Shown here piece by piece: positions 49,000 to 61,815 of a DNA stretch of 64,000 bases. Below the pieces are notes generated by a model. That model did no database searches. It saw only the letters and a list, made by a program, of their open reading frames with translations, and had not been told where the DNA came from. This stretch comes from Brevibacillus choshinensis. Its GTDB lineage: Bacteria > Bacillota > Bacilli > Brevibacillales > Brevibacillaceae. Position numbers and translations under genes: made by a program. The DNA lies in the NCBI RefSeq assembly GCF_016811915.1, contig NZ_CP069127.1, positions 409,501 to 473,500 of the forward strand. Direction: 5' to 3'. How positions within the stretch are numbered: position 1 is the stretch's first letter; every line of letters begins with the position of its first letter.

Positions 49000-49066
49000 A
49001 ATGTCGAACCTATGTAACGATGGGTATAGGAATGATAGGTATCAAGTCCTATCAATGTTCGACATT
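49000..49066. promoter_or_regulatory. Long cruciform/hairpin before kinase gene
   Basis: The gap 48780-49162 is A+T-rich and has no gene. Within it AATGTCGAAC (49000-49009) pairs with GTTCGACATT (49057-49066), with an inner ATAGGA/TCCTAT pair, and five T follow. A second dyad, TTGTCA-ATGT-TTGACAA, lies at 49076-49092. This may be an attenuator or an operator cluster for the kinase/regulator genes downstream. Confidence 0.45.
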
Positions 49067-49162
49067 TTTCAGATATTGTCAATGTTTGACAAGATCTAGT
49101 ACGATAGATGTGTCTTAATTTTCCGTCGTTTGCTAGGATTAGAAGAAACGGAGCCCTATCTC

Positions 49163-50716
49163 ATGGATTGGTTGCTGAAAGAATTCCGTCATGTCGTGTA
49201 CTTTCTTCAATGGGTACTTCTCCTGGCTTTCTGCTTTTTTTATATGGACGCACCGAATTCGGATTCACAATCGTTTATCGCTTTCCTGCTCATCGTCCTG
49301 GCGTACGTGAGTATTCTGTTCTACGCGCTGCCGCGAAAGCGATGGTTTTTGCTCGGACTGGTCGATATGGGCTTGGCCTTGTTTTTTATCATCCAGACCG
49401 GAAAATGGAGCAGTCCGTTCATGTTGTACGCATATACCACCCTGTTGTGGCTGATGGTGGTTTTGCGGTTTGAACAGGTGCTTCTGATCGTCGTTTTGTT
49501 CCTCATATCTGCTTCCCTGCTTCAGGAATGGCTTCCCTTCACCATGATTCCAGCTGACATGAATTTCAACCAGCTTCGCTTGCTTCTCGATATCACACTA
49601 TGGGCTAGCATGACCTTTTGCTTCTTCGCTTTGCTGCGTTCGATTAAGAGTATGTATGCGCGATGCTACCACGTGTTTTTATACATGCAAAAGGTAGCTG
49701 CCAGCTCCACAATGAATTTGTGTGCGACCACCGAGCAGATGGTACGGCGTGTCTTTCGCTCGGAACAAGCGTTTTTGTGTCTTTATCAGAGCCTCGATGG
49801 AGAGGGAGATTGGAAGCGTGAGTACTATTTGAACACCTTGCTCGACGCGGGAGCCGAGGAATGGGAGAGCGTCAGGACCGAGCTTTTGGATGATTACTCC
49901 GGACGCAAGGATACATATGTCTGCATGCCGCTGCGTATGGATGGGGAAGCGTGGGGATGCCTGATCTTCTCGATATCGCCCAAGCGGGTATTGAATCGGG
50001 GAGAGCGCCTTTTGCTTCGAGTGATTTCCCTGATCATCTGTCAGCACAGAAAGCAGCTTCGCGCCCACTATGAACTGGCCCAATCCCTGCACGAGGAGAT
50101 GCGGCGAAATCTGGCGCAGGACATGCACGACGGTTTGGCTCAGCAATTGTTCTTCTTGTCGGCCCAAATGTTTCAGTTGAAGCAGTCTTTGCCGCAGGAG
50201 GTACGGATGAGCATGGCCGAACGGCTGGAGCAGATCGAAGAACGCATCAAGTGGTGTCATGGTGAAGTGCGGCATACGATTACACACCTCAAGAAGTTCA
50301 GGGAATCAGAGCAGCTGGCGGAGGCAATCGACCAGCTCCTGAAACGGATGACCGTAGGAACGGATTTGCAGGTGCGCTTCACGTCGAAAGGAAGGGTACT
50401 GGAGGAAGAATTGCCCGTACTCGATGCGATTTACCGAATGGTGGAGGAGGCGACTGCAAATGCAGTCAAGCACGCACAGGCACGCATCCTCACGGTCAGC
50501 GTGGAAGCGTCATCGGTACAGGTAAAGGTACGTGTGCAAGATGACGGCATCGGCTTTGTCGCAGAAGAGAATACAAGGGAAGCCAAGTATGGGGTCGTGG
50601 GCATGCAGGAGCGAATCGCCCAGGTCGGCGGTACCTTGCATATCCGTTCCAAGCCGAGTGAGGGTACGGAAATCATGGCCATCATACCGAGAAAGGGAGT
50701 GGGGATGTATGGATAG
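49163..50716 (+). CDS. DesK/NarL-type sensor histidine kinase
   Basis: 517 residues. Five to six helices cover residues 10-170, then a GAF-like region, a HisKA_3 dimer domain with DMHDGLAQQLFFLSAQMFQ (His322) and an ATPase domain (EATANAVKHAQA, QDDGIGFVAEEN, GVVGMQERIAQVGG). I use the ATG at 49163 (GGAG upstream) over the TTG at 49130. Its stop overlaps the start of its NarL-type regulator. The signal is unknown; the cluster that follows suggests surface or matrix control. Confidence 0.9.
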   Translation: MDWLLKEFRHVVYFLQWVLLLAFCFFYMDAPNSDSQSFIAFLLIVLAYVSILFYALPRKRWFLLGLVDMGLALFFIIQTGKWSSPFMLYAYTTLLWLMVVLRFEQVLLIVVLFLISASLLQEWLPFTMIPADMNFNQLRLLLDITLWASMTFCFFALLRSIKSMYARCYHVFLYMQKVAASSTMNLCATTEQMVRRVFRSEQAFLCLYQSLDGEGDWKREYYLNTLLDAGAEEWESVRTELLDDYSGRKDTYVCMPLRMDGEAWGCLIFSISPKRVLNRGERLLLRVISLIICQHRKQLRAHYELAQSLHEEMRRNLAQDMHDGLAQQLFFLSAQMFQLKQSLPQEVRMSMAERLEQIEERIKWCHGEVRHTITHLKKFRESEQLAEAIDQLLKRMTVGTDLQVRFTSKGRVLEEELPVLDAIYRMVEEATANAVKHAQARILTVSVEASSVQVKVRVQDDGIGFVAEENTREAKYGVVGMQERIAQVGGTLHIRSKPSEGTEIMAIIPRKGVGMYG

Positions 50717-51332
50717 CGTAAGGCTGCTATTGGCAGACGATCATCGCATCGTTCGCGAGGGACTGAAAATGATTTTGGAGAGCTCCCCGCGCTATACGGT
50801 TGTAGAAGAAGCAAGCGATGGAGACGAGCTGTTATCCAAGGCGTTGTCCGTAAAGCCTGACCTGATTGTCTCGGATTTGAAAATGCCTGGCATCTCGATC
50901 ATAGACGGCTGCAAAGTGCTCAAGGATCAGCTGCCCGATATCAAGGTATTGATACTGACCGCTTTTGATGAAAGCGAAGATGTGTTTCGGGCATTGGAGT
51001 CCAATGTGGACGGGTATATCATGAAGGACACCGTTCCCGAGCAAATTTTGCATACGATGGACATGGTGATGATGGGATATTCCTGCTTCCAATCCAAGCT
51101 GCAGCGTAAACGAAAGGAAGAGCCGGATGTAGCTTTCACGGATCGGGAGCAAGAGGTCTTTCAGCTGATCGTCGAGAATTTGAGCAACCAGGAAATTGCG
51201 CAGCGTCTCTATATCTCGGAGGCTACGGTCAAGACGCACGTCAGCAGCATTTTGCGAAAGACAGGGCAACCCAACCGCTCTCAGGCGGTCTTGTACGCAT
51301 TAAAGAAGGGCTTGGTCAAGGTAGCTCCTTAA
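50709..51332 (+). CDS. NarL/FixJ-family response regulator
   Basis: 207 residues. Receiver with LLLADDHRIVREGL, Asp56 in IVSDLKMPG, Thr in LILTAFD and Lys in YIMKDT; C-terminal LuxR-type HTH (FTDREQEVFQLIVENLSNQEIA, SEATVKTHVSSILRKTGQ). Overlaps the kinase gene by 8 bp. NarL-type proteins bind short inverted repeats, and such a repeat occurs before each transcription unit of the fibre cluster, making this the leading candidate for its activator; untested. Confidence 0.93.
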   Translation: MDSVRLLLADDHRIVREGLKMILESSPRYTVVEEASDGDELLSKALSVKPDLIVSDLKMPGISIIDGCKVLKDQLPDIKVLILTAFDESEDVFRALESNVDGYIMKDTVPEQILHTMDMVMMGYSCFQSKLQRKRKEEPDVAFTDREQEVFQLIVENLSNQEIAQRLYISEATVKTHVSSILRKTGQPNRSQAVLYALKKGLVKVAP

Positions 51333-51373
51333 GGGGCGGCCATCACAAGGAAAACGGTAAAGAAGGGTAGTCG

Positions 51374-52528
51374 ATGAGACAGAGGAAAAGAAACAAAAAC
51401 CACGCCAGTTACCTAGCGGATGCCATGTTTTACTGGATCTCCATTTTGGTTAGTGCCGATGCGGTAATGGCGATCCTCTTGCAGGCACTGGGAATCATTT
51501 CGAACGAATGGACAGCGATTGTCGGTTTGGTCGTGTGTGCGGCTGTCAGTTGGACGGTCTACGTTCTGCACAAGCGTTACGTGCTGCCGGAGACTTACTC
51601 TCTTCATGCCTCTGCCTTTTTGTGCACGTCCTTGCTCTTGTTTTTTTGCCTGTACAATCCCCAGCAGTTTACCGGATTGTGGACTGTTTTTCTCCTTTTT
51701 CCTATCTATCTCAGTTTTTTTTACGATCGCTCACTCGTATTGGTATGGAGTTCGATCAGTTACTTGCTGTATGCGCTCAGCCTGGGAACCGGACAGAGCC
51801 AAGCGTTTAGCATGGATATCTTCTTCCATCTGACGCTGGCGGCCGCGAGCGCGATCTGCACTTGGATCGGATATTCGACTCTCCAAAAAAGAATGGGAGA
51901 GGCCAAGATCGCAACGCAAGAACATAACCGCGAATACGCCATCACACTGCTGAATACACTGGTTCCGATCGTCGAGCGCAAGACGCAGATTAGCAGCCGA
52001 GAAATTGAACAAATGAGCCGGCTGATCAAGCGGATGCTGCGAGAGTTCCCTCATGACCAGGTGACCGATTGGGAAATCAAGCTGCTCTCCTTATTGCATT
52101 ACGTCAGCCGCATCAAATTTCCCGATTACGTGTTCGAGACAGATGAAAAGCTGACGACGTTTGAATTCCAAATCATTCAGGAGCATTGCCAGTTTGGCTA
52201 CGAAATGTTTCAGGAAGAACCGTCCTTTGCCAGAGTCGTACGTGCGCTGCAGGATCATCATGAGCGCTTTGACGGGACCGGCTACCCCAAAAAGCTGAAG
52301 GGAGACGACATCATTCTCCTGGCGCAAATTTTGGGAATCGTCGAGAGCTTCCTGGCGATGACGACGACGCGGACGTACCGGCAGACCTCCTCGATTGAAG
52401 AGGCATTTGAGGAGATATGCACGATGGCAGGGACGGCTTATGATGAAAAAGTGGTCAAGGCATTCGTCAAATCGGTACAAATTCATTCGCCCACCAAAGT
52501 ATCCAATGTCCCTCCAATGGTCGGATAG
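51374..52528 (+). CDS. Membrane protein with degenerate HD-GYP domain
   Basis: 384 residues. Five to six helices lie in residues 12-175, followed by a cytoplasmic HD-GYP-like domain. The second half of the motif is intact (HHERFDGTGYP, residues 295-305), but the catalytic HD dyad is LLHYVSRIKFPD: Asp is replaced by Tyr243. The later ALTSxRPYR-type motif survives as AMTTTRTYR. HD-GYP proteins hydrolyse cyclic di-GMP; loss of the Asp suggests a sensor or regulatory protein instead. It follows the regulator gene by 41 bp. Confidence 0.85.
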   Translation: MRQRKRNKNHASYLADAMFYWISILVSADAVMAILLQALGIISNEWTAIVGLVVCAAVSWTVYVLHKRYVLPETYSLHASAFLCTSLLLFFCLYNPQQFTGLWTVFLLFPIYLSFFYDRSLVLVWSSISYLLYALSLGTGQSQAFSMDIFFHLTLAAASAICTWIGYSTLQKRMGEAKIATQEHNREYAITLLNTLVPIVERKTQISSREIEQMSRLIKRMLREFPHDQVTDWEIKLLSLLHYVSRIKFPDYVFETDEKLTTFEFQIIQEHCQFGYEMFQEEPSFARVVRALQDHHERFDGTGYPKKLKGDDIILLAQILGIVESFLAMTTTRTYRQTSSIEEAFEEICTMAGTAYDEKVVKAFVKSVQIHSPTKVSNVPPMVG

Positions 52529-52624
52529 CCTCCGCCCGATGGATAAAGAGAATCAGACTGATTTCCGATAGGCTTTCCGCTCTTGGCTTGGTAGAGTAGA
52601 GTAAGGAAAAAGGGGGGGAGGCAC

Positions 52625-52834
52625 ATGATGCAAAAATGGTGTGGGCGTTGCAAACGCCACTCGTTCAGCAGCGGAGATTGGTACCGTTGGATATGTCCGT
52701 ACTGTAACAAGGATCTCACCATGCAAAAGGCTTCTCCCGCGACGATCCGGTTTATCCTGGTTCGCCCCTTTGCTCCCTATCGCTATACGCTGACCGATAG
52801 CCAGCTTCTACAACGCGACGAAAATACCGCCTGA
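52625..52834 (+). CDS. 69-residue zinc-ribbon protein
   Basis: Two CxxC pairs, Cys6/Cys9 (WCGRC) and Cys24/Cys27 (CPYC), form a probable zinc ribbon in the first 30 residues; the remainder is basic (RFILVRPFAPYRYTL). GGGGGGGAGG precedes the ATG, with a second ATG right after it. Function unknown; it may bind nucleic acid or a partner protein. Ends in its own terminator, so it is separate from the signal peptidase gene. Confidence 0.7.
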   Translation: MMQKWCGRCKRHSFSSGDWYRWICPYCNKDLTMQKASPATIRFILVRPFAPYRYTLTDSQLLQRDENTA

Positions 52835-52852
52835 TACGGGCGGTATTTTTTT
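52822..52852 (+). terminator. Rho-independent terminator
   Basis: AAATACCGCC/GGGCGGTATT stem followed by T-run; the left arm overlaps the stop codon of the zinc-ribbon gene. Confidence 0.88.
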
Positions 52853-52861
52853 GTCCCTCCT

Positions 52862-52889
52862 CCTGTCTCATCCTTCAGTATGAGACAGG
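52862..52889 (+). promoter_or_regulatory. Shared inverted repeat, copy A
   Basis: Core CTCATCCTTCAGTATGAG at 52867-52884, extended to 10-bp arms CCTGTCTCAT/ATGAGACAGG. Near copies occur at 56483-56499 and 57632-57649. It is 115 bp before the first signal peptidase start and not followed by a T-run, so an operator is more likely than a terminator. Confidence 0.6.
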
Positions 52890-52998
52890 GTCAGCCTGCC
52901 TGCCAAAAATCTTCCTCCTTCCAAGCGGCTGGAGTCCCTCCGGTGGTGGAAGATATGGGGATTCGAACTTCGTACAATGAGACAAAGGGGTGGTCGGA

Positions 52999-53556
52999 GT
53001 GGGAGTCGTCTGGACAAAACGCATAGGGCTTGGTCTGCTTGCTCTTTTTTTCATCTTGAATCTGTTCCTGTACGCAAGCAGTCAATGGAACTCGGACCGG
53101 ATACCCGGAATGGGCAACTGGCGAGTCTTATCCGTGCTGACAGGCAGCATGTCGCCGACGATCGATGCTGGGGACATGGTGATTGTGAGTCGCTACATCG
53201 GAAAAGTGCCCCAGACGGGAGACATCGTCACGTATTGGAAAGACGATCAGTCTCGCTCTCTCATTACGCACCGCGTCATCATGCGGCTCGAAAACGGCTA
53301 TCTGCAAACAAAAGGAGATGCCAACCACGAGGCAGACGGAGGCTGGACGGACCCGAACCGTTTGGTAGGACAAGTGGTTTATACGATTCCGTATGCAGCA
53401 GCACTCCAGCAGCTTCTCAAGGAACCGTTGATGATGCTTCTCATATTGAGTGGCTTTCTGATTTTCGTTGTCTATACACAGCGTCGATCTGGCGCCAAAC
53501 AGGATTTGAAACCGGCTTCGGTCGAGAACGAGACGATTGAGGGGGAACTAACATGA
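52999..53556 (+). CDS. sipW: SipW-type signal peptidase I (first copy)
   Basis: 185 residues with an N-terminal helix and a C-terminal helix near 145-162. Catalytic Ser50 is in TGSMSPT; the general base is His91 in LITHRV rather than Lys, and GDAN carries Asp107, which define the ER/archaeal-type signal peptidases such as SipW. SipW matures TasA and TapA in biofilm formation. The GTG at 52999 fits AAAGGGG best; a GTG at 52990 is possible. The next gene overlaps it by 4 bp and is the likely substrate. Confidence 0.93.
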   Translation: MGVVWTKRIGLGLLALFFILNLFLYASSQWNSDRIPGMGNWRVLSVLTGSMSPTIDAGDMVIVSRYIGKVPQTGDIVTYWKDDQSRSLITHRVIMRLENGYLQTKGDANHEADGGWTDPNRLVGQVVYTIPYAAALQQLLKEPLMMLLILSGFLIFVVYTQRRSGAKQDLKPASVENETIEGELT

Positions 53557-54869
53557 AGTGGGAACAGGTGAAAAACTGGCCGTGGAAGCGGATCATCGTC
53601 GGAACCGCTGTCATCTCTTCCATTGCAGCGAGCACCAGCTTTGGGACGTACGCGTATTTTACGAGCCAAGTAGAGGATTCGACCACCTTTGCAGCGGGGA
53701 GGTTGGAAATCAGTCTGGGTGAGAATCGAGCAAAATTCCAGGCGGAAGCCGACCAGCCCTTCCTGCCAGGCGTTCGCGTGGAGAAGACGCTGAGTGTGGA
53801 AAATAACAGCGATGTGCCGGTGAAGTACGCCTTGCTAGCGGAAAAAGCGGGAGGAGATGACGTCGTCTACGATCAGCTCGTAGCGGAAATTCGCCGCACC
53901 AGCGACGACGAGCTGCTCTACCATGGGCGAATCAGCACCCTGACCCAGGCGAACGTCGTCATCCCTGAATTGGAAAAGGGCGAGCGGGACCAGTTGCAAT
54001 TTACCGTTTATTTGCCAGAAAGCACAGGGAATGAAGTGCAGGAAAAATCGGCAGAGGTCAACTTCGGCTTCCTGGCTACGCAGCAAGACAATGGCGATTA
54101 CTTTGCACAGAGTGGGCCTGTCATGACCTTCACCCCTCAGGACTTGAGTGGAAAGCAGCTGCTGGACACGATGAAGCTGGCTAACCGTGTGGGCGAAGAA
54201 GAAAGCGCCAAGCACAAGGATGGCGAGGCGGCAAAGGGAATGACCTTTGTCTTGGCAGAGGGCTCTTATGATTTGAGCGGCATGGAACTCCCGAAACACA
54301 TTACCTGGAAGGCAGCACCTGGCCAGGAAGGCAAAGTCATCATCCGGGCCGATGAGCTAGAAGTACACGATGCTTCCTTTGAAGGAATTCGCTTTGAAGG
54401 GCGGGGGACGGGATTGTTGGTCGGCTCCAACGTCAGCTTCCGCAATTGCACATTTGGCAGCGGATTCGACGAGGCTATCCGGACGGCGGGAGCAGTGGAC
54501 GAGCAAACGGAAGAGTCCGAGAGCACCAAAGTCCTCGAAGGGCTGACGGTAAAAGACAGCGTCTTCGAAGGAGCCGACCAGGCGATTGTTCTGAATCAGA
54601 CCATCAAAGCGGCATTGATTGCCAATAACACATTCAATGGCGGTAAACACGCCGTCGTCATAGCCAATGACAAGGAAACGCAGGTCCAGATTGTCGATAA
54701 CGATTTCACCAAAACAGGCCAATACGCCGTGGAGAGCGGCGGAGTGCGGGTAGGTGATGGCATTGACGGATTTAAGGAGATCGAGGGAGAAGTCGTCGGG
54801 ACGAAGAAGCTGGCTCTCCATTTGTACAAAGCAGATCTGTACCTGGAAAACAACAAGTATGCAAAATGA
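53553..54869 (+). CDS. TasA/camelysin domain fused to right-handed beta-helix
   Basis: 438 residues. The N terminus is a TasA/CalY-type leader (IIVGTAVISSIAASTSFGTYAYFTSQ, then TTFAAGRLEISLG), and a TasA-like beta-sandwich extends to about residue 175. From about 200 the protein changes to short repeated strands typical of a pectate-lyase-like beta-helix: FEGIRFEGRGTGLLVG, FRNCTFGSGFDEAI, VKDSVFEGADQAIVL, IANNTFNGGKHAVVI, IVDNDFTKTGQYAVE. I know of no described TasA-family protein with this fusion. Overlap with sipW suggests direct processing. Likely secreted to the surface or matrix. Confidence 0.85.
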   Translation: MKWEQVKNWPWKRIIVGTAVISSIAASTSFGTYAYFTSQVEDSTTFAAGRLEISLGENRAKFQAEADQPFLPGVRVEKTLSVENNSDVPVKYALLAEKAGGDDVVYDQLVAEIRRTSDDELLYHGRISTLTQANVVIPELEKGERDQLQFTVYLPESTGNEVQEKSAEVNFGFLATQQDNGDYFAQSGPVMTFTPQDLSGKQLLDTMKLANRVGEEESAKHKDGEAAKGMTFVLAEGSYDLSGMELPKHITWKAAPGQEGKVIIRADELEVHDASFEGIRFEGRGTGLLVGSNVSFRNCTFGSGFDEAIRTAGAVDEQTEESESTKVLEGLTVKDSVFEGADQAIVLNQTIKAALIANNTFNGGKHAVVIANDKETQVQIVDNDFTKTGQYAVESGGVRVGDGIDGFKEIEGEVVGTKKLALHLYKADLYLENNKYAK

Positions 54870-55536
54870 GCAGAGCGGACGATATTCCAGATCACGCTCG
54901 CGGTCCAGAGGGAGAGCGCGCTTTGCCCTGCTTCGGGATCAGATCATCGGGAGTGTCTTCCTAGTGGGTGTCGCGCTGTCCATGTGGGGGCAGCCGGCGA
55001 CCACGTACAGCTGGATGTGGCAGGAGATCAAGGACACCGGGCATGATTTTGCTGTCGGGCTTCTCGATATATCATCGAGCAGTTTCGCTAGCGAGTGGCA
55101 AGTCATGCAAGGAGGCAATCAAGTCGTGGATCTGTCGAAAATGATACCGGGTGATGCCCGTCAGATAAAAGCGACACTTTCGAGGGGCGCAAGCGATTTG
55201 GACTTTCATTATAAAATCGTGGCGCGGGTAAAGGATACCGGTACGCCCGGAGCGGCACAAAAGCTAGAGGAAGTGCTGCGCATGCGGATTACCGAAGGCA
55301 GCCAGGAAGTCGTATACGACGGTCTGGTCAGAGATTTGCATCAGGAACAGCCTGGGATCGTCCGTGCGAATGGAACGGAGGGCGATTTTTCGGCGAATGA
55401 GGGAGATAAGTCATTTTTCATTTCGGTGTATTTGCCGGCAGAGGGCGTCGATCATTCCTACCAGTCGCTCAGCGGGGAGCTGGAGCTGCGCTTTTTGGCA
55501 AAACAGGCTACACCGAATGCCATTTTTGCAGAGTAA
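54859..55536 (+). CDS. TasA/CalY-like secreted protein with RS-rich leader
   Basis: 225 residues. A basic Arg/Ser segment (YSRSRSRSRGRARF, residues 9-22) precedes a hydrophobic helix (IIGSVFLVGVALSMWG), then a beta-sandwich in which DFAVGLLDISSSSF stands at the place of the FAAGTLD motif of TasA proteins. The unusually long, very basic N-region could slow export or bind nucleic acid or lipid. The ATG overlaps the previous stop by 11 bp; the ribosome binding site is weak, implying coupled translation. Confidence 0.78.
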   Translation: MQNEQSGRYSRSRSRSRGRARFALLRDQIIGSVFLVGVALSMWGQPATTYSWMWQEIKDTGHDFAVGLLDISSSSFASEWQVMQGGNQVVDLSKMIPGDARQIKATLSRGASDLDFHYKIVARVKDTGTPGAAQKLEEVLRMRITEGSQEVVYDGLVRDLHQEQPGIVRANGTEGDFSANEGDKSFFISVYLPAEGVDHSYQSLSGELELRFLAKQATPNAIFAE

Positions 55537-55548
55537 GGGGGGAACCAC

Positions 55549-56379
55549 TTGAAGAGACTGGCGATGGGGTTGATGGCAGCTGCACTTGCGCTGAACATCG
55601 TGCCTCTGGATGGAACGCTCTCATTTTTGACCAGTGAAAAGAAGCAGGTGTCCCCCGTTTCAACGGGTACCAATGAAGACGTCTTCGTGACGGATGCGAA
55701 CCGGATTGATTTAAAGACGAAGGTAGAGAAACGGACGAAGATCACGCGTAAGGTAAATGCAGACGGATCTTCATCGGAGACCAAGGACAGCAGGCTTTCT
55801 GTACTGGAGGGCTCTCAGGTCATTTCCTTTACGCCCAAGCGGCCACATCTGGATCTCGATGTGGAAAATATGACAGTGACAGGTGATGCTGCGAGTGAAG
55901 TCGTGGTGGAGCGCCTGGCAACGGACAAAGAAATTTCCTTTCGCATTTCCCATAGCCGCAAAAGTGCATGGGATAAGCGAAAAAGCGAAACAGAAAAGGG
56001 AGAGCTGCGGGTAACGGCACTGGGAGGCTTTTACTCCCTGTCGATTCCCTTGACGATCAGCACATCCTATCGGGAATCGACTGACTTGACGGAGGAGGCT
56101 GCGCCGAATCCGAGCACGCCGGGGACTTCAGACACACCGAGTACACCTGACACGCCTACTACACCTGCGCCGGGAGGAAACACGACGGAACCTGCACAGC
56201 CACCGTCTGCCGGAGAGGAGACACCAGCGACGCCACCCACTGATTCCAGCGGCCCGGCACCCCCATCTACACCCGACACGGGGACCGATCCCCCCGTGAC
56301 GGATACGCAGGAGGGTACGCCATCCGGTTCCCCAAGTACTCCAGATGACCCACCTGCGAGTGATTCCGCGCGTCAGTGA
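55549..56379 (+). CDS. Secreted protein with Pro/Thr/Ser-rich tail
   Basis: 276 residues from a TTG start 6 nt after AAGGGGGG. A signal peptide (LAMGLMAAALALNIVPLDG) leads to a beta-rich domain to about residue 180, then 90 residues of PSTPGTSDTPSTPDTP-type repeats. There is no LPxTG motif or terminal helix, so the tail is a spacer or wall-binding segment rather than a sortase anchor. Probably the TapA-like accessory or stalk of the fibre; this is inferred from position in the operon. Confidence 0.78.
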   Translation: MKRLAMGLMAAALALNIVPLDGTLSFLTSEKKQVSPVSTGTNEDVFVTDANRIDLKTKVEKRTKITRKVNADGSSSETKDSRLSVLEGSQVISFTPKRPHLDLDVENMTVTGDAASEVVVERLATDKEISFRISHSRKSAWDKRKSETEKGELRVTALGGFYSLSIPLTISTSYRESTDLTEEAAPNPSTPGTSDTPSTPDTPTTPAPGGNTTEPAQPPSAGEETPATPPTDSSGPAPPSTPDTGTDPPVTDTQEGTPSGSPSTPDDPPASDSARQ

Positions 56380-56419
56380 AGATGGAATGACGACGGCCGC
56401 ACAAAATACCCCATACTTG

Positions 56420-56450
56420 CCCAGCGAGGATGTCCTTGCTGGGTCTTTTT
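56420..56450 (+). terminator. Rho-independent terminator
   Basis: CCCAGC...GCTGGG stem with inner AGGA/TCCT, followed by TCTTTTT. Closes the four-gene sipW operon. Confidence 0.85.
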
Positions 56451-56482
56451 ATGAGGACGACCGACTGAAAGGAGTAGACTCT

Positions 56483-56499
56483 CTCATACTGAAGTAGAG
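56483..56499 (-). promoter_or_regulatory. Shared inverted repeat, copy B
   Basis: CTCATACTGAAGTAGAG; its reverse complement CTCTACTTCAGTATGAG aligns with copy A except near one end. It is 142 bp before the first tasA paralogue. TACAAT elements at about 56515 and 56570 could be -10 boxes. Confidence 0.5.
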
Positions 56500-56640
56500 G
56501 GTAACAATCCTACGGGGCACTCTCTACAATTGCCACTCATGAAGGAAGTCACTCATCCCTCAAAAACCTACAATGAAAAATAATGGTAGAAGATAGAACT
56601 TTTCATTCATCATACGGAAAACCGAATAAGGAGGAATAAA

Positions 56641-57399
56641 ATGAACATCAAAAAACAATTCGCATTATCACTGGCATCAGTAGGAGTCGGAGCTGCTCTA
56701 CTTGGTGGGGGCACTTACGCTTGGTTTAACAGCACGGCGACCATTAGTGAAAACGAGTTCGCTGCAGGTACGCTTGATATGGAGGTCGCTGCAGTCAACG
56801 GCTACCAAATCAAGTTTGACCTGAAAGACTTAAAGCCCGGAGATTATATGACCAGAAGATTTGACATTAAAAACACAGGCTCCTTAGATATTAAGGAAGT
56901 CCTGCTGCAGCTGAACTTCAATCCGGAGACTGATTTCAGCGAAGGAAAAGCCCCGGATGGTAACGAGAATGTTAATGTTTCTGCGGGTAAAAAAGCGAGT
57001 GCCTTGGATTATCTGAGCCAATATGAAATTCAGTTTTTCAAGACGGAAGCGGAATCTTCCTACACGACGAGCGATATGGACCTCTTGAAGCAGCTCAAGT
57101 GGAGATTAGGGAAAAATTCGGTCACTCTGCGAGACCTGTATGAGCTCACCCAGACAGAACGGCTCGATATTGCATACCGCAATCTTTTAAATCCAAAGCC
57201 CGGAACCAATACGGCGGATGATGATCAAATTGAAATGAAAATTGGGTTTATCAATAATGAACAAAAAAATCCTGATGGCACGTATGTTCAAAATAAATAC
57301 CAGGGTGATTCCATCAAGATTGCGTTTGACCTGGAAGCAACCCAATGGGAAGGGATCAAGCGTGACAATGGGGACAAGCCACCCATTATCGTGGACTAA
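56641..57399 (+). CDS. tasA: TasA-family fibre protein, paralogue 1
   Basis: 252 residues. Leader KKQFALSLASVGVGAALLGG with SipW-type cleavage expected near TYAWFNSTA, then ENEFAAGTLDMEV, LKPGDYMTRRFDIKNTGSLDI and a jelly-roll-like domain, all as in TasA/camelysin. TasA polymerises into fibres that hold biofilms together. AAGGAGG precedes the ATG. It forms its own transcription unit with the shared repeat upstream and a perfect terminator downstream. Base composition here is more A+T-rich than in the flanking metabolic genes. Confidence 0.9.
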   Translation: MNIKKQFALSLASVGVGAALLGGGTYAWFNSTATISENEFAAGTLDMEVAAVNGYQIKFDLKDLKPGDYMTRRFDIKNTGSLDIKEVLLQLNFNPETDFSEGKAPDGNENVNVSAGKKASALDYLSQYEIQFFKTEAESSYTTSDMDLLKQLKWRLGKNSVTLRDLYELTQTERLDIAYRNLLNPKPGTNTADDDQIEMKIGFINNEQKNPDGTYVQNKYQGDSIKIAFDLEATQWEGIKRDNGDKPPIIVD

Positions 57400-57569
57400 T
57401 AGGATCCAGGTTGAAGGTGGGTTCAGAAACCCGCCAGTTTTGCGCATAGCAACACTTCTGACAAATACCAACTATAGCATTTGGTGCAGCTTACCTAATT
57501 GATGGTATCACCCCTAGAGAAGCATAATCATAAGGAAGCCGTAAGCGATGACCCGACATACGGTATTGT

Positions 57570-57603
57570 AACAGGCTCATGCATATGCATGAGCCTGTTT
57601 TTT
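57570..57603 (+). terminator. Rho-independent terminator
   Basis: A perfect 30-bp palindrome, AACAGGCTCATGCAT and its complement, followed by T-run. The 398-bp gap 57400-57797 also holds a GGTGGGTT/AACCCGCC hairpin near 57416-57434 and repeat copy C; no gene seen. Confidence 0.92.
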
Positions 57604-57631
57604 GTGGTTACTTGAAAAAGTCGATATTCAA

Positions 57632-57649
57632 CTCATCCTCTGGTATGAG
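57632..57649 (+). promoter_or_regulatory. Shared inverted repeat, copy C
   Basis: CTCATCCTCTGGTATGAG matches copy A at 15 of 18 positions, the three differences lying in the centre. It is 149 bp before the second sipW start. Confidence 0.6.
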
Positions 57650-57797
57650 GGGAGCAAGTGATGAGTGTGAGGAGCGTTTCAACCGTGCAAGTGTGGAGAA
57701 TCACCCTGAAGCAGGAAGATAAGATGTTGGAAAATCCGTAAGATTAAAACTGTGAACGGCAAACATTCGCTCCAAAGAAAGCGGGGGATAAAAGTTA

Positions 57798-58337
57798 GTG
57801 GCCTTACTCAAAAAAATCATATCGATACTGACCAGTACCCTACTAATCGTTGTGATTGCCATCACGGGTTTCCTGCTCGTCGGGAAAATGAACGACGGAA
57901 AAACTATGCTGTTTGGTAACCAACTCATGGTGGTTCTAAGCGGATCTATGTCTCCAACATTTGACACTGGTAGCATAGTTGCTGTTGGCCCGGTTGACTT
58001 CAAAGAAGTGCAGACCAACGACATCATCACTTTTAAGGATCCTGAAGGCAGAACGATTACACATCGTGTCGTCGAAATCAAGGATGATCAACTAATAACC
58101 AAGGGCGATGCAAATGACGGAAAAGACACATCTCCAGTAACATCAGATCGTTTCATTGGAAAAGTACAGTACTCCATTCCGTATATTGGATTTTTCATCG
58201 AGTTTGCCAAATCTGGCACAGGGATGCTGTTCCTCTTAGGAATACCTGGTGTTTATCTGATCGTAAGCCAAGTTTGGAAGTTGCTCAAAATGATCAAAAA
58301 CGAGGACTCCAATACGGCAACAAAGTCACAAGCATAA
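57798..58337 (+). CDS. sipW: SipW-type signal peptidase I (second copy)
   Basis: 179 residues. N-terminal helix 8-29, catalytic Ser50 in LSGSMSPT, His89 in TITHRV, Asp104 in KGDAND and a C-terminal helix near 145-165, the same architecture as the first copy. GTG start behind GGGGGATAA. It is 102 bp before tasA paralogue 2 and lacks a terminator between, so the two are cotranscribed: a dedicated protease/substrate pair separate from the first sipW operon. Confidence 0.92.
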   Translation: MALLKKIISILTSTLLIVVIAITGFLLVGKMNDGKTMLFGNQLMVVLSGSMSPTFDTGSIVAVGPVDFKEVQTNDIITFKDPEGRTITHRVVEIKDDQLITKGDANDGKDTSPVTSDRFIGKVQYSIPYIGFFIEFAKSGTGMLFLLGIPGVYLIVSQVWKLLKMIKNEDSNTATKSQA

Positions 58338-58439
58338 ATCACCTCAACCGGTGATACCTTGGGGGCTGGTAACAGACTCAATTCTGGTATCAGGCTTCAA
58401 GTCATCATAAAAAAATTATTCCTTTAGGGGGAACTGAGA

Positions 58440-59063
58440 ATGAGCTTGAAAAAACAATTTGCAGTAACATTGGCATCTGTGGGTCTGGGAGCAGCACTGA
58501 TTGGCGGAGGAACTTTCGCATGGTTCAACGCAACAACTGAGGTTGCAAATAATACGTTTGCCGCTGGTACAATGGCGATAGGTACTCAACCGGCACAAGG
58601 TGTATTTCAAGTAAGCAATATGAAACCAGGTGACTGGGCAGTTAAGACCTTCCAAGTACAGAACAAAGGGTCCTTGGATATTAACAAAGTATTGATGGGC
58701 TTAGATTATACAATCAATGACGTTGGGAGTAACCAGTTGGATGCAGATGATTTAGCTAAAAATTTGAAGGTATATTTCCTCGCAAGTGACGATAATACAG
58801 CTACTCCTTTTGATGACCAAATAATCATCAATCCTCTCTTCCCAAATCAAGGAAAAACATTGAAAGAGTTTAAAGAGCTTAATCAAGTAGATGTTTCTAG
58901 CTTGGGCACTAAATTGTCTAACTTGAAACCAAATGGAGAAGACCGGATCTTCATTGGTATCAAATTCGTAGATGATAATGCAGACCAAAACCGATTCCAA
59001 GGTGATGGTGTGAATATCAAATTCAAGCTGGAAGGCAAACAAACTTCCGGAACAGAAAAATAG
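58440..59063 (+). CDS. tasA: TasA-family fibre protein, paralogue 2
   Basis: 207 residues. KKQFAVTLASVGLGAALIGG and TFAWFNATTEVANNTFAAGT closely match paralogue 1, as does MKPGDWAVKTFQVQNKGSLDI; the second half diverges and is shorter. Likely a second fibre subunit, or the minor subunit of a mixed fibre. TTTAGGGGGAAC precedes the ATG. Shares the low G+C and codon habit of paralogue 1, which suggests common ancestry by duplication. Confidence 0.9.
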   Translation: MSLKKQFAVTLASVGLGAALIGGGTFAWFNATTEVANNTFAAGTMAIGTQPAQGVFQVSNMKPGDWAVKTFQVQNKGSLDINKVLMGLDYTINDVGSNQLDADDLAKNLKVYFLASDDNTATPFDDQIIINPLFPNQGKTLKEFKELNQVDVSSLGTKLSNLKPNGEDRIFIGIKFVDDNADQNRFQGDGVNIKFKLEGKQTSGTEK

Positions 59064-59083
59064 TATTAAATCAGTTCTTGAAT

Positions 59084-59116
59084 GAAGCCCTACTCTTTAG
59101 AGAGTGGGCTTCTTTT
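59084..59116 (+). terminator. Rho-independent terminator
   Basis: GAAGCCC-ACTCT/AGAGT-GGGCTTC stem followed by TTTT, after tasA paralogue 2. Confidence 0.85.
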
Positions 59117-59196
59117 GTTATTAAACGAAAAAGAGGTGGGATAAGTTCATACCTTTTTAAATCTATTTTTCTATTGGACTTAGCATTCCTAAAAGT

Positions 59197-59505
59197 TTAC
59201 ACGCCAGACTGAGCCACAGCCACCTTTAACGCATACCTCAAATCCCCGATAATATCACCAATCGTTTCGGTCCCAATCGAGAAACGGATCAACCCCGGGG
59301 TAATCGACGCAGTTTCCTGCTTCTCCTCTGACATCTGCTTACTCGTAGGATGAGTGACCAGCGATTTGGAATTTCTGACATTTGCCAGATGAGAGAAAAG
59401 TCATGGGGATTCGATCAGTATCTTGCCTTCATTTACGCCGACATTATATACCAAAAGTAAGTCAAGTGAGAATGGCGCCTGAACTATAATCGCAGGTATT
59501 TCACT
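59197..59505 (-). pseudogene. Decayed C-terminal remnant of a second metY
   Basis: The minus strand encodes a clear match to the last 70 residues of the intact metY at 60434: FSHLANV, KSLVTHP, TPGLIRFSIGTETIGDIIGDL, then a shifted C terminus and stop at 59197. Upstream the match continues (NEGKILIES, LTFGI, KYL) but is broken by an in-frame TGA where the intact gene has VK, by small insertions and by frameshifts. The rest of the gene is gone. It is a relic, not a gene. Confidence 0.85.
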
Positions 59506-59610
59506 GCCTGATGGGGAAACTAGAGTCTCCATTCCATTAGCGAATGGGATGTCAGGGTTACCAATATTTTGCCATTTACCCCCGTCAAACGAATGTGGTA
59601 ATTTTTTGGG

Positions 59611-59745
59611 AAGCCAAAACTTCTGCTAGTGAAGTGCGGGGGACGATTTTCTTCGCAAATTCTTTCCGTTTGCGATTGGGGTGAAGCGCACATGCGCAGG
59701 GTTGACTCCTCAACCCGAATCCGACAACTAACCTCGCAGGCAGTT
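59611..59745 (+). ncRNA. c-di-AMP riboswitch (ydaO-yuaA class)
   Basis: The conserved 3' core CCGACAACTAACCTCGCAGGC at its heart (59721-59741), preceded by GGGGTGAAG, a GCGCACATGCGC stem, AGGGTT/AACCC pairing and, further 5', GAAGTGCGGGGGACG, follows the ydaO consensus in order. The outer helix pairs GCC at 59613 with GGC at 59740. It ends just before the ribosome binding site of a LysM-3D cell-wall gene, a typical target. The class switches genes off when c-di-AMP is high. No terminator is seen, so translation control is likely. Confidence 0.85.
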
Positions 59746-59760
59746 GAAAGGAGATCAATA

Positions 59761-60345
59761 ATGAAAAAACGTTTCAGGGCAAAATCATTTGTAATGATGG
59801 CGTTAGGTTTCTGCTTGGCAGTGATCTCAACACCGGCATTCGCTGCTTCCTCTACCTACCAGATTAAAGCAGACGACACCTTCTACAAAATTTCCAAACA
59901 GCATAATGTGCCTTTGGCATCGATTCTACAGGCTAATCCCGGAGTAGATTCACAGAACCTGCAACCGGGGCAGACGATCCAGCTGCCAGTTGCCAAACAA
60001 GTGAAGACAGCTTCAGGTCCAACTCGTCCTTACAGCAAAATAATCAAAGCTGTGGCGACCGCCTATACAGGATCCGCGAAGGAAAACGGCGGATGGGCAG
60101 GGGTGGATTACTTAGGAAACCCGCTCAAAGTGGGTACGATCGCAGTCGATCCAGATGTGATCCCACTTGGTTCCACTGTATACATCACAGGGTACAAGCA
60201 TGGCGCGCTTCCTGCGAACGGTATGATCGCGAAAGCAACCGACATCGGTGGTGGGATCAAAGACGCGCGCGTGGACATTTATGTGCCTGGTCATGATGCA
60301 AGCGATTTCGGCATGCAAAACGTTCAAATTTATGTGTTGAAGTAG
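59761..60345 (+). CDS. LysM and 3D-domain cell-wall protein (YocH-like)
   Basis: 194 residues. A signal peptide ends near TPAFAAS; a LysM domain follows (YQIKADDTFYKISKQHNVPL, residues about 31-74); the C-terminal 3D domain carries ATAYTG, VDPDVIPLG and ATDIGGGIKDARVDIYV with the three conserved Asp. Such proteins bind peptidoglycan and act as lytic transglycosylase-like autolysins. The ATG at 59761 follows GAAAGGAG; the open frame upstream lies in the riboswitch. Control by c-di-AMP links wall turnover to turgor. Confidence 0.93.
   Translation: MKKRFRAKSFVMMALGFCLAVISTPAFAASSTYQIKADDTFYKISKQHNVPLASILQANPGVDSQNLQPGQTIQLPVAKQVKTASGPTRPYSKIIKAVATAYTGSAKENGGWAGVDYLGNPLKVGTIAVDPDVIPLGSTVYITGYKHGALPANGMIAKATDIGGGIKDARVDIYVPGHDASDFGMQNVQIYVLK

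Positions 60346-60433: not shown

Positions 60434-61815
<1,382 letters not shown>

Follow-up and report, generated by a model that had tools for sequence, protein, structure and literature searches.

Does a TasA fibre locus carry a control system of its own, or do signalling genes simply lie beside it? The textbook model of matrix control in spore-forming Bacilli is SinI/SinR of Bacillus subtilis. The window, a 64,000-nucleotide stretch of the single-contig, 6.17-Mb genome of Brevibacillus choshinensis (contig NZ_CP069127.1, positions 409,501 to 473,500), contains at 49130-59063 genes for a sensor kinase and a response regulator, followed by genes for SipW signal peptidases and TasA-like secreted proteins. 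An earlier note on this DNA had proposed a self-contained TasA/SipW extracellular-fibre locus with its own two-component system. Every gene that it named is an open frame at its place and matches the proposed family, and the proposal itself is supported: the sensor genes are linked to the fibre genes in all 12 loci compared in Brevibacillus and close kin, as well as in two further families (L120 and L147). The locus probably forms a regulon of two tiers dedicated to a TasA fibre that SipW processes.

The sequence of 49130-59063 can be divided into four transcription units, with the following genes.

49130-50716 (+): membrane sensor kinase with HisKA_3 and HATPase_c domains, which we take to be DesK-like; alternative ATG start at 49163
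50709-51332 (+): NarL-type response regulator (Response_reg and GerE) with a near-invariant helix-turn-helix stretch
51374-52528 (+): membrane HD-GYP-like protein in which HY replaces HD (HD_5, E 9e-31)
52625-52834 (+): zinc-ribbon miniprotein with two CxxC motifs, found in 10 of the 12 loci and also in L120 and L143
52990-53556 (+): SipW1 signal peptidase, TIGR02228 above cut-off; the start may be GTG at 52999
53553-54869 (+): secreted TasA-domain/beta-helix protein, PF12389 and Beta_helix in 11/11 orthologues
54862-55536 (+): secreted TasA-fold protein with an Arg/Ser leader (RS-leader), from fold search and hhalign
55549-56379 (+): immunoglobulin (Ig)-like domain protein with a Pro/Thr-rich tail, TapA-like in build (structure model; Ig/PapD-like matches)
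56641-57399 (+): TasA1, PF12389 at 111 bits
57798-58337 (+): SipW2 signal peptidase, TIGR02228 at 117 bits
58440-59063 (+): TasA2, PF12389 at 157 bits

The first unit (49130-52834) joins the kinase, the regulator, the HD-GYP-like protein and the zinc-ribbon miniprotein, and ends in a hairpin with a T run. The second (52990-56379) runs from sipW1 through the TasA-beta-helix and RS-leader genes to the Ig-like gene, its members overlapping or nearly touching. The third (56641-57399) is tasA1 alone, and the fourth (57798-59063) consists of sipW2 and tasA2. The secreted proteins number five (53553, 54862, 55549, 56641 and 58440), not the four of the earlier note.

Linkage is traced in a genus set of 26 genomes, with thresholds of E <= 1e-40 for the kinase, E <= 1e-5 for TasA-beta-helix and E <= 0.001 for PF12389, and with SipW counted where TIGR02228 exceeds its cut-off. 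The kinase, TasA-beta-helix, the PF12389 TasA and SipW co-occur in the same 10 genomes and are found in none of the other 16; sensor genes unlinked in relatives, which the note had named as the sign of two unrelated neighbours, are thus not what is seen. Each of the 10 genomes has exactly two SipW, both inside the locus, and 15 of the 16 locus-free genomes show only sub-cut-off matches, to ordinary signal peptidases. Together with B. migulae and B. fluminis these genomes provide the 12 loci, the named orthologous contigs being those of B. centrosporus, B. fortis, B. invocatus, B. reuszeri, B. panacihumi, B. borstelensis, B. migulae and B. fluminis. The order kinase, regulator, HD-GYP-like, SipW1, TasA-beta-helix, second TasA-fold protein, Ig-like Pro/Thr-tailed protein, SipW2, TasA is conserved in 12/12, while identity among relatives falls as low as 32% for the kinase, 42% for TasA-beta-helix and 71% for the regulator. 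Of the gene order proposed earlier, the first TasA does not hold beyond the window species: 1/12 loci has a tasA1 copy between the Ig-like gene and sipW2, and the other 11 have no match there. The zinc-ribbon gene is undetected in two of the 12 (G009 and G012).

In nine of the 10 locus-bearing genus genomes, MoxR and MetY flank the block and stand 10.1-16.6 kb apart; in the 16 genomes without it their distance is 0.4-4.3 kb. The tenth, G017, carries the block on a different contig and has 3.6 kb between MoxR and MetY. An rpoB tree was built for 30 genomes, of which 11 have the block (G029, which carries the sensor cassette alone, is scored as without it). Well-supported branches of this tree force at least six changes in block presence; a number this low arose in 13 of 500 label shuffles. 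Because of these changes and the empty sites, the whole block is seen to come and go in Brevibacillus.

A shared sequence ties the fibre units together. When the regions upstream of sipW1 are aligned for the 12 loci, a long, nearly ungapped conserved stretch emerges, the upstream end of which is the palindrome CTCATMCTNNAGKATGAG. This candidate operator recurs in the window, each time above a similar promoter.

52867-52884 (+): operator site 1, 5' of sipW1, 16/16 match to CTCATMCTNNAGKATGAG
52948-52978 (+): sipW1 promoter, GGAAGAT-18-TACAAT, same layout in 12/12 loci
56483-56500 (+): operator site 2, 5' of tasA1, 13/16 match to CTCATMCTNNAGKATGAG
56544-56574 (+): tasA1 promoter by layout, GGAAGTC-18-TACAAT
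57632-57649 (+): operator site 3, 5' of sipW2, 15/16 match to CTCATMCTNNAGKATGAG
57714-57744 (+): sipW2 promoter by layout, GGAAGAT-18-TAAGAT

These are the only window sites at three or fewer mismatches, one 5' of each matrix unit. Across the 12 loci the operator scores 15 or 16 of 16 at 122-125 bp 5' of sipW1, and it also occurs at 13/16 or better 5' of sipW2 or tasA in 11 (12/16 in L022); 26 of the 28 sites at 13/16 or better stand 5' of sipW1, sipW2 or tasA. The sipW1 promoters share one geometry in 12/12 loci, with GGAAG in the -35 place 80-81 bp past the operator, followed after 18-19 nt by TAnnAT. The sipW2 and tasA promoters have an 18-nt spacer wherever the layout is recognised, at an operator distance of 37, 61, 82-84 or 127 bp; for L027 sipW2 the layout is not recognised.

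Outside the locus the operator fades to background. At no more than one mismatch, the 10 locus-bearing genus genomes contain 23 sites (17 in the locus, 6 outside) and the other 16 contain 4; since a reversed control pattern gives 8 sites in the 26 genomes, the 10 that fall outside the locus appear to be chance matches. The exact operator, searched for after the consensus was fixed, has seven sites in the 26 genomes, all within the locus. In 398 Bacilli genomes it has eight sites in seven genomes, all at the locus, against one for the reversed control. A regulator profile of 8 rows (L120 is a row, which makes its own score dependent on the profile; L147, L143 and the genus g5 are not), run on the same 398 genomes, yields 15 orthologues scoring at least 348.8 bits, with the next match at 182.9. 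The exact operator is present in 7 of these 15 regulator-bearing genomes and in 0 of the 383 others. The common operator goes past the evidence of the earlier note, and its confinement to the locus is a good case of matching a candidate regulator to its predicted targets by sequence alone. Two other identities of the upstream elements are rejected: an RNA element, as the palindrome lies upstream of the -10 and its positions 6 and 13 frequently have C and T, a combination that does not pair; and an extracytoplasmic function (ECF) sigma promoter (GGAA...CGTA), as CGT is missing from several promoters.

The proteins of the sensor cassette retain the residues of a working two-component pair. The HisKA_3 histidine, the receiver aspartate and the GerE helix-turn-helix are all present, and the kinase H-box AQDMHDGLAQ is identical in 12/12 loci. 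The helix-turn-helix stretch EATVKTH.SSILRK.GQPNRSQAVL is invariant save for its two dotted positions in 8 rows from two families; judged from the alignments, conservation of this predicted DNA-binding stretch runs in step with that of the operator. The HD pair of HD-GYP phosphodiesterases is metal-binding. In 51374-52528 this pair is lost, in agreement with the degenerate protein that the note had described: it reads HY in 15/15 TasA-linked orthologues and HF in the three others, those of g5, so that a catalytic pair is found in none of the 18, while HHExxDGxGYP is retained.

Upstream of the kinase, elements of a different kind are found.

49002-49008 (+): second Spo0A-type box, TGTCGAA, 5' of the kinase, exact motif
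49058-49064 (-): Spo0A-type box (TTCGACA on the + strand), 11 nt 5' of the -35, exact motif
49076-49105 (+): kinase promoter TTGTCA-18-TACGAT, read from the sequence

The core motif of 0A boxes, as given in the accessible part of PMC3485338, is TGTCGAA, that is, TTCGACA read in reverse. TTCGACA lies 10-11 nt 5' of a TTG -35, with a TAnnnT -10 17-18 nt further on, in 12 of 15 TasA-linked cassettes (11 of the 12 Brevibacillus-type loci and L143); by chance, an exact box on either strand occurs in 305 of 14,200 random 180-bp windows (2.1%). The timing that such boxes would impose also suits a sporulation-stage or spore-surface fibre in place of a biofilm matrix, and PDB entry 5of1 names TasA 'Spore coat-associated protein N'. 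This alternative appears unlikely, as the SipW/TasA-type loci of Bacillus subtilis, Bacillus cereus and Clostridium perfringens function in pellicles or biofilms according to the accessible text of PMC13082335, PMC4292775 and PMC7395162. The product of the proposed regulon is presumably a biofilm matrix fibre.

The two SipW proteases proposed earlier are both confirmed as SipW-type, with TIGR02228 scores of 74 (SipW1) and 117 bits (SipW2) against a cut-off of 51.85. Both retain in 12/12 loci the motifs GSM and THR, which we take to hold the catalytic Ser and His. At 62.6 and 146.9 bits they stay below the more than 190 bits of the Bacillus SipW equivalog NF046067, and TasA1, at 129 bits, below the more than 450 of the TasA equivalog NF046066. 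The proteins at 53553, 56641 and 58440 all belong to the TasA/camelysin family PF12389. The first of them scores 23.9-30 bits against a cut-off of 22.5, so that the TasA part of the fusion stands; its beta-helix part is carried by the orthologues, 11/11 of which match Beta_helix at E <= 0.01, while the window protein itself reaches 23.5 bits, under the Pfam cut-off of 25.9.

The RS-leader protein had been called TasA-like, a likeness that emerges from its fold and not from Pfam or NCBIfam, neither of which gives a match at E <= 0.1. Its AlphaFold model has a predicted local distance difference test score (pLDDT) of 71.5 and a predicted template modelling score (pTM) of 0.62. In a fold search with this model, three TasA structures rank first (Z 9.5, 8.6 and 8.6, the highest being the TasA fibre 8aur), and the next, unrelated, structure has 7.5. 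The hhalign probability is 90-93%, and only one of 11 aligned orthologues matches PF12389. The Ig-like protein, whose leader contains GTLSFLTSE, is modelled with a pLDDT of about 84-96 over residues 51-180, the N-terminus and tail being of low confidence. Its fold matches are unspecific, with a best Foldseek E of 2.9e-3 and a best Z of 9.8 to the SPD-2 domain of CEP192, followed by PapD-type chaperones; TapA is absent from the fold matches listed, an absence that excludes nothing.

The same arrangement extends to other families. In L120 (G039), the kinase, the regulator (56% by tblastn), the HD-GYP-like and zinc-ribbon genes are followed by the operator, a secreted protein, SipW and two TasA; in L147 (G217), the kinase, a regulator of 71% identity and the HD-GYP-like gene are followed by the operator, a secreted protein, SipW and three TasA-like proteins. 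Both carry the exact operator, with regulators 54-71% and kinases 31-32% identical. The first gene 3' of the operator in L120 (8425-9072) and L147 (12164-13360) encodes a secreted protein whose leader is SipW-like. In L143 (G207:C62), the cassette and a zinc-ribbon gene are accompanied by a 14/16 operator site near the contig end, while SipW and three TasA open another contig of this genome (L085, G207:C17), which suggests that L085 and L143 are one locus split by assembly.

TasA loci at large are mostly of another kind. PF12389 at E <= 1e-10 is found in 54 of the 398 class genomes, nine of them in the genus, and the loci outside the genus number 48 (47 from 44 genomes, and L026 from a 45th); G217 was missed by this screen and found through its regulator, so the sample is incomplete. 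An adjacent orthologous cassette is found in one of the 48, L120; G207 lacks the adjacency because its contig ends. Apart from L120, none of the other 47 loci has an operator site at 14/16 or better (0.94 Mb searched). A NarL-type regulator lies within 20 kb in L026, L090, L119 and L121, and an HD-domain protein in L026, L102, L103, L111, L117, L122 and L123. The regulator and kinase of L026 (G049), about 4 kb from the nearest TasA, were considered and rejected as orthologues, at 33% and 28% identity. The 47 of 48 loci without the cassette, and a TasA, a SipW and an accessory third protein alike in kind, would fit a plain SinR-type matrix operon, as in Bacillus subtilis and Bacillus cereus, with a regulator nearby by chance. 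This is very improbable in view of the cassette linked in 12/12 loci and two other families and of the locus-bound operator. The Brevibacillus-type arrangement forms a lineage of its own among TasA loci and is not their general pattern.

Several observations weigh against the dedicated regulon. The operator consensus derives from the same 12 loci, so that their match counts are partly circular, and the operator count of the window is not rare: shuffles average 0.68 sites, and 6 of 100 reach three. Eight of the 15 regulator-bearing genomes are without the exact operator, three being of g5 and five having 14-15/16 sites in the locus. The Spo0A box is missing from L023, L120, L147 and all three g5 loci, and the Ig-like protein shows no homology to TapA by sequence match to TapA chains. 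In G009 (L027), an insert of about 6 kb (L027 8943-14548) parts the HD-GYP-like gene from sipW1, the operator having remained with sipW1; its frames presumably include a membrane sensor-like one, the others resembling a tripartite tricarboxylate transporter. No operator at 13/16 or better is found 5' of the kinase in the 12 loci, so autoregulation is not seen. Finally, g5, another genus of the family with three genomes, has the cassette with HF in the HD-GYP-like protein (L144, L145 and L146), and shows no TasA match, no operator at 13/16 or better and no SipW match above the level of ordinary signal peptidases. In L144 the cassette stands beside MoxR, as in Brevibacillus, and in L144 and L146 the SipW/TasA place is taken by a signal peptidase I and by secreted proteins of coiled-coil appearance, one of which has a Pro-rich tail; this points either to re-use of the module or to replacement of the matrix genes. 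The g5 genomes and the operator-free kinase promoter are what would be expected if the cassette and the fibre genes were co-inherited neighbours and the palindrome were owned by another regulator. The restriction of the exact operator to regulator-bearing genomes, and its span of three families with kinases down to 31% identical, make this quite unlikely.

In the proposed two-tier regulon, the Spo0A box above the kinase promoter would tie expression of the sensor cassette to stationary phase, Spo0A control and its sign both being suppositions. The kinase would then phosphorylate the NarL-type regulator, which is predicted to bind CTCATMCTNNAGKATGAG and half-sites between the palindrome and the weak -35, and so to activate every matrix unit: the sipW1 operon, tasA1 and sipW2-tasA2. 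SipW1 and SipW2 would cleave the SipW-type leaders, and TasA1 and TasA2 would polymerise through donor-strand exchange. The Ig-like Pro/Thr protein may serve as a TapA-like starter or wall anchor, and the TasA-beta-helix and RS-leader proteins as minor or tip subunits. The HD-GYP-like protein, its catalytic Asp lost, would act as a sensor or coupler, not as a phosphodiesterase. A wider view is put forward tentatively, namely an old control module of a Spo0A-gated kinase/NarL-type pair with a non-catalytic H[YF]-GYP partner in at least three Bacilli families, in which one private operator for all SipW/TasA units replaces SinI/SinR, two SipW serve two substrate sets and beta-helix TasA proteins are tip adhesins. 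If the two-tier regulon is real, TasA fibres in part of Brevibacillus and in two other families are under a different regulator, which acts through a private operator; this would offer a handle on the biofilms of an industrially used genus.

Further features lie within and beyond these units.

52824-52852 (+): hairpin and T run closing the sensor unit, read by eye and absent from the list of the terminator scan
56419-56444 (+): terminator-like site 3' of the sipW1 operon, from the scan
57570-57599 (+): terminator-like site 3' of tasA1, from the scan
58350-58407 (+): hairpin of 58 nt with near-invariant arms between sipW2 and tasA2, both arms in 4/12 loci
59089-59108 (+): terminator-like site 3' of tasA2, from the scan

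The scan returns 11 terminator-like sites, compared with 13.0 for shuffled sequence, which makes any single site weak evidence. The sipW2-tasA2 hairpin is present in the window, L017, L022 and L023, where tasA2 has no upstream operator at 13/16 or better. L065 retains the 3' arm with five mismatches, and L027 has neither the hairpin nor an operator 5' of tasA. Its fold has a z of -2.8 (2 of 200 shuffles are as good), Rfam gives no match at E <= 1, and covariation is not seen because the arms hardly vary. As a leader RNA, the hairpin may set the tasA:sipW ratio. The G+C content is 41-44% across tasA1, sipW2 and tasA2 (57000-59999), below the 47-54% across 49000-56999. Beyond the locus, the remnant of a second metY-like gene (59209-59439, minus strand) encodes 80 residues, which share 69% identity with the C-terminal part of the intact MetY (60434-61741). 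An S-adenosylmethionine (SAM) riboswitch (RF00162, 61829-61936) lies 5' of metY. A cyclic di-AMP (c-di-AMP) riboswitch (RF00379, 74 bits, 59602-59757) stands 5' of a secreted protein at about 59761, presumably LysM/3D-domain-like.

Among known systems, the tapA-sipW-tasA operon of Bacillus subtilis likewise pairs a SipW-processed TasA with a third protein of Ig fold, TapA, a V-set Ig with a TasA-like N-terminus; in Brevibacillus one Ig-like protein is modelled. It differs in being one operon under SinR/SlrR, and the accessible text mentions no linked two-component system (PMC10151520, PMC13082335). The earlier picture of known Bacillus loci as one tapA-sipW-tasA unit is too simple, since Bacillus cereus has sipW-tasA, capP and calY (PMC13082335, as far as accessible). 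Like the locus described here, it has two TasA paralogues in separate transcription units and an accessory protein whose C-terminal domain is disordered; it differs in its SinR regulon and single sipW, a linked sensor cassette being unmentioned in the accessible parts of PMC13082335 and PMC4292775. In the model, the Ig-like protein seems to resemble TapA and CapP, as these are described there, in build: an ordered domain with a low-confidence N-terminus and tail.

A printed description of the Brevibacillus locus was not found in searches of an open-access library, including the accessible parts of PMC9301480 and PMC7112168. The nearest precedent, which the earlier note left unnamed, is sipW-bsaABCRSD of Clostridium perfringens, which has its own two-component system, a SipW and several putative secreted proteins, among them the polymerising BsaA. 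According to the part of PMC7395162 available, BsaSR is indispensable for sipW transcription and BsaR bound to PsipW; control of this type is predicted here from the operator. There, bsaRS lies inside the operon, 3' of bsaABC, with one sipW (PMC7395162), whereas the Brevibacillus locus has a separate upstream sensor unit with a Spo0A box, HD-GYP-like and zinc-ribbon partners, two sipW, TasA-beta-helix and a common palindrome. In conclusion, what is new relative to this precedent is the layout, the partner set, the locus-bound operator common to all matrix units, the Spo0A box and the occurrence in three families.

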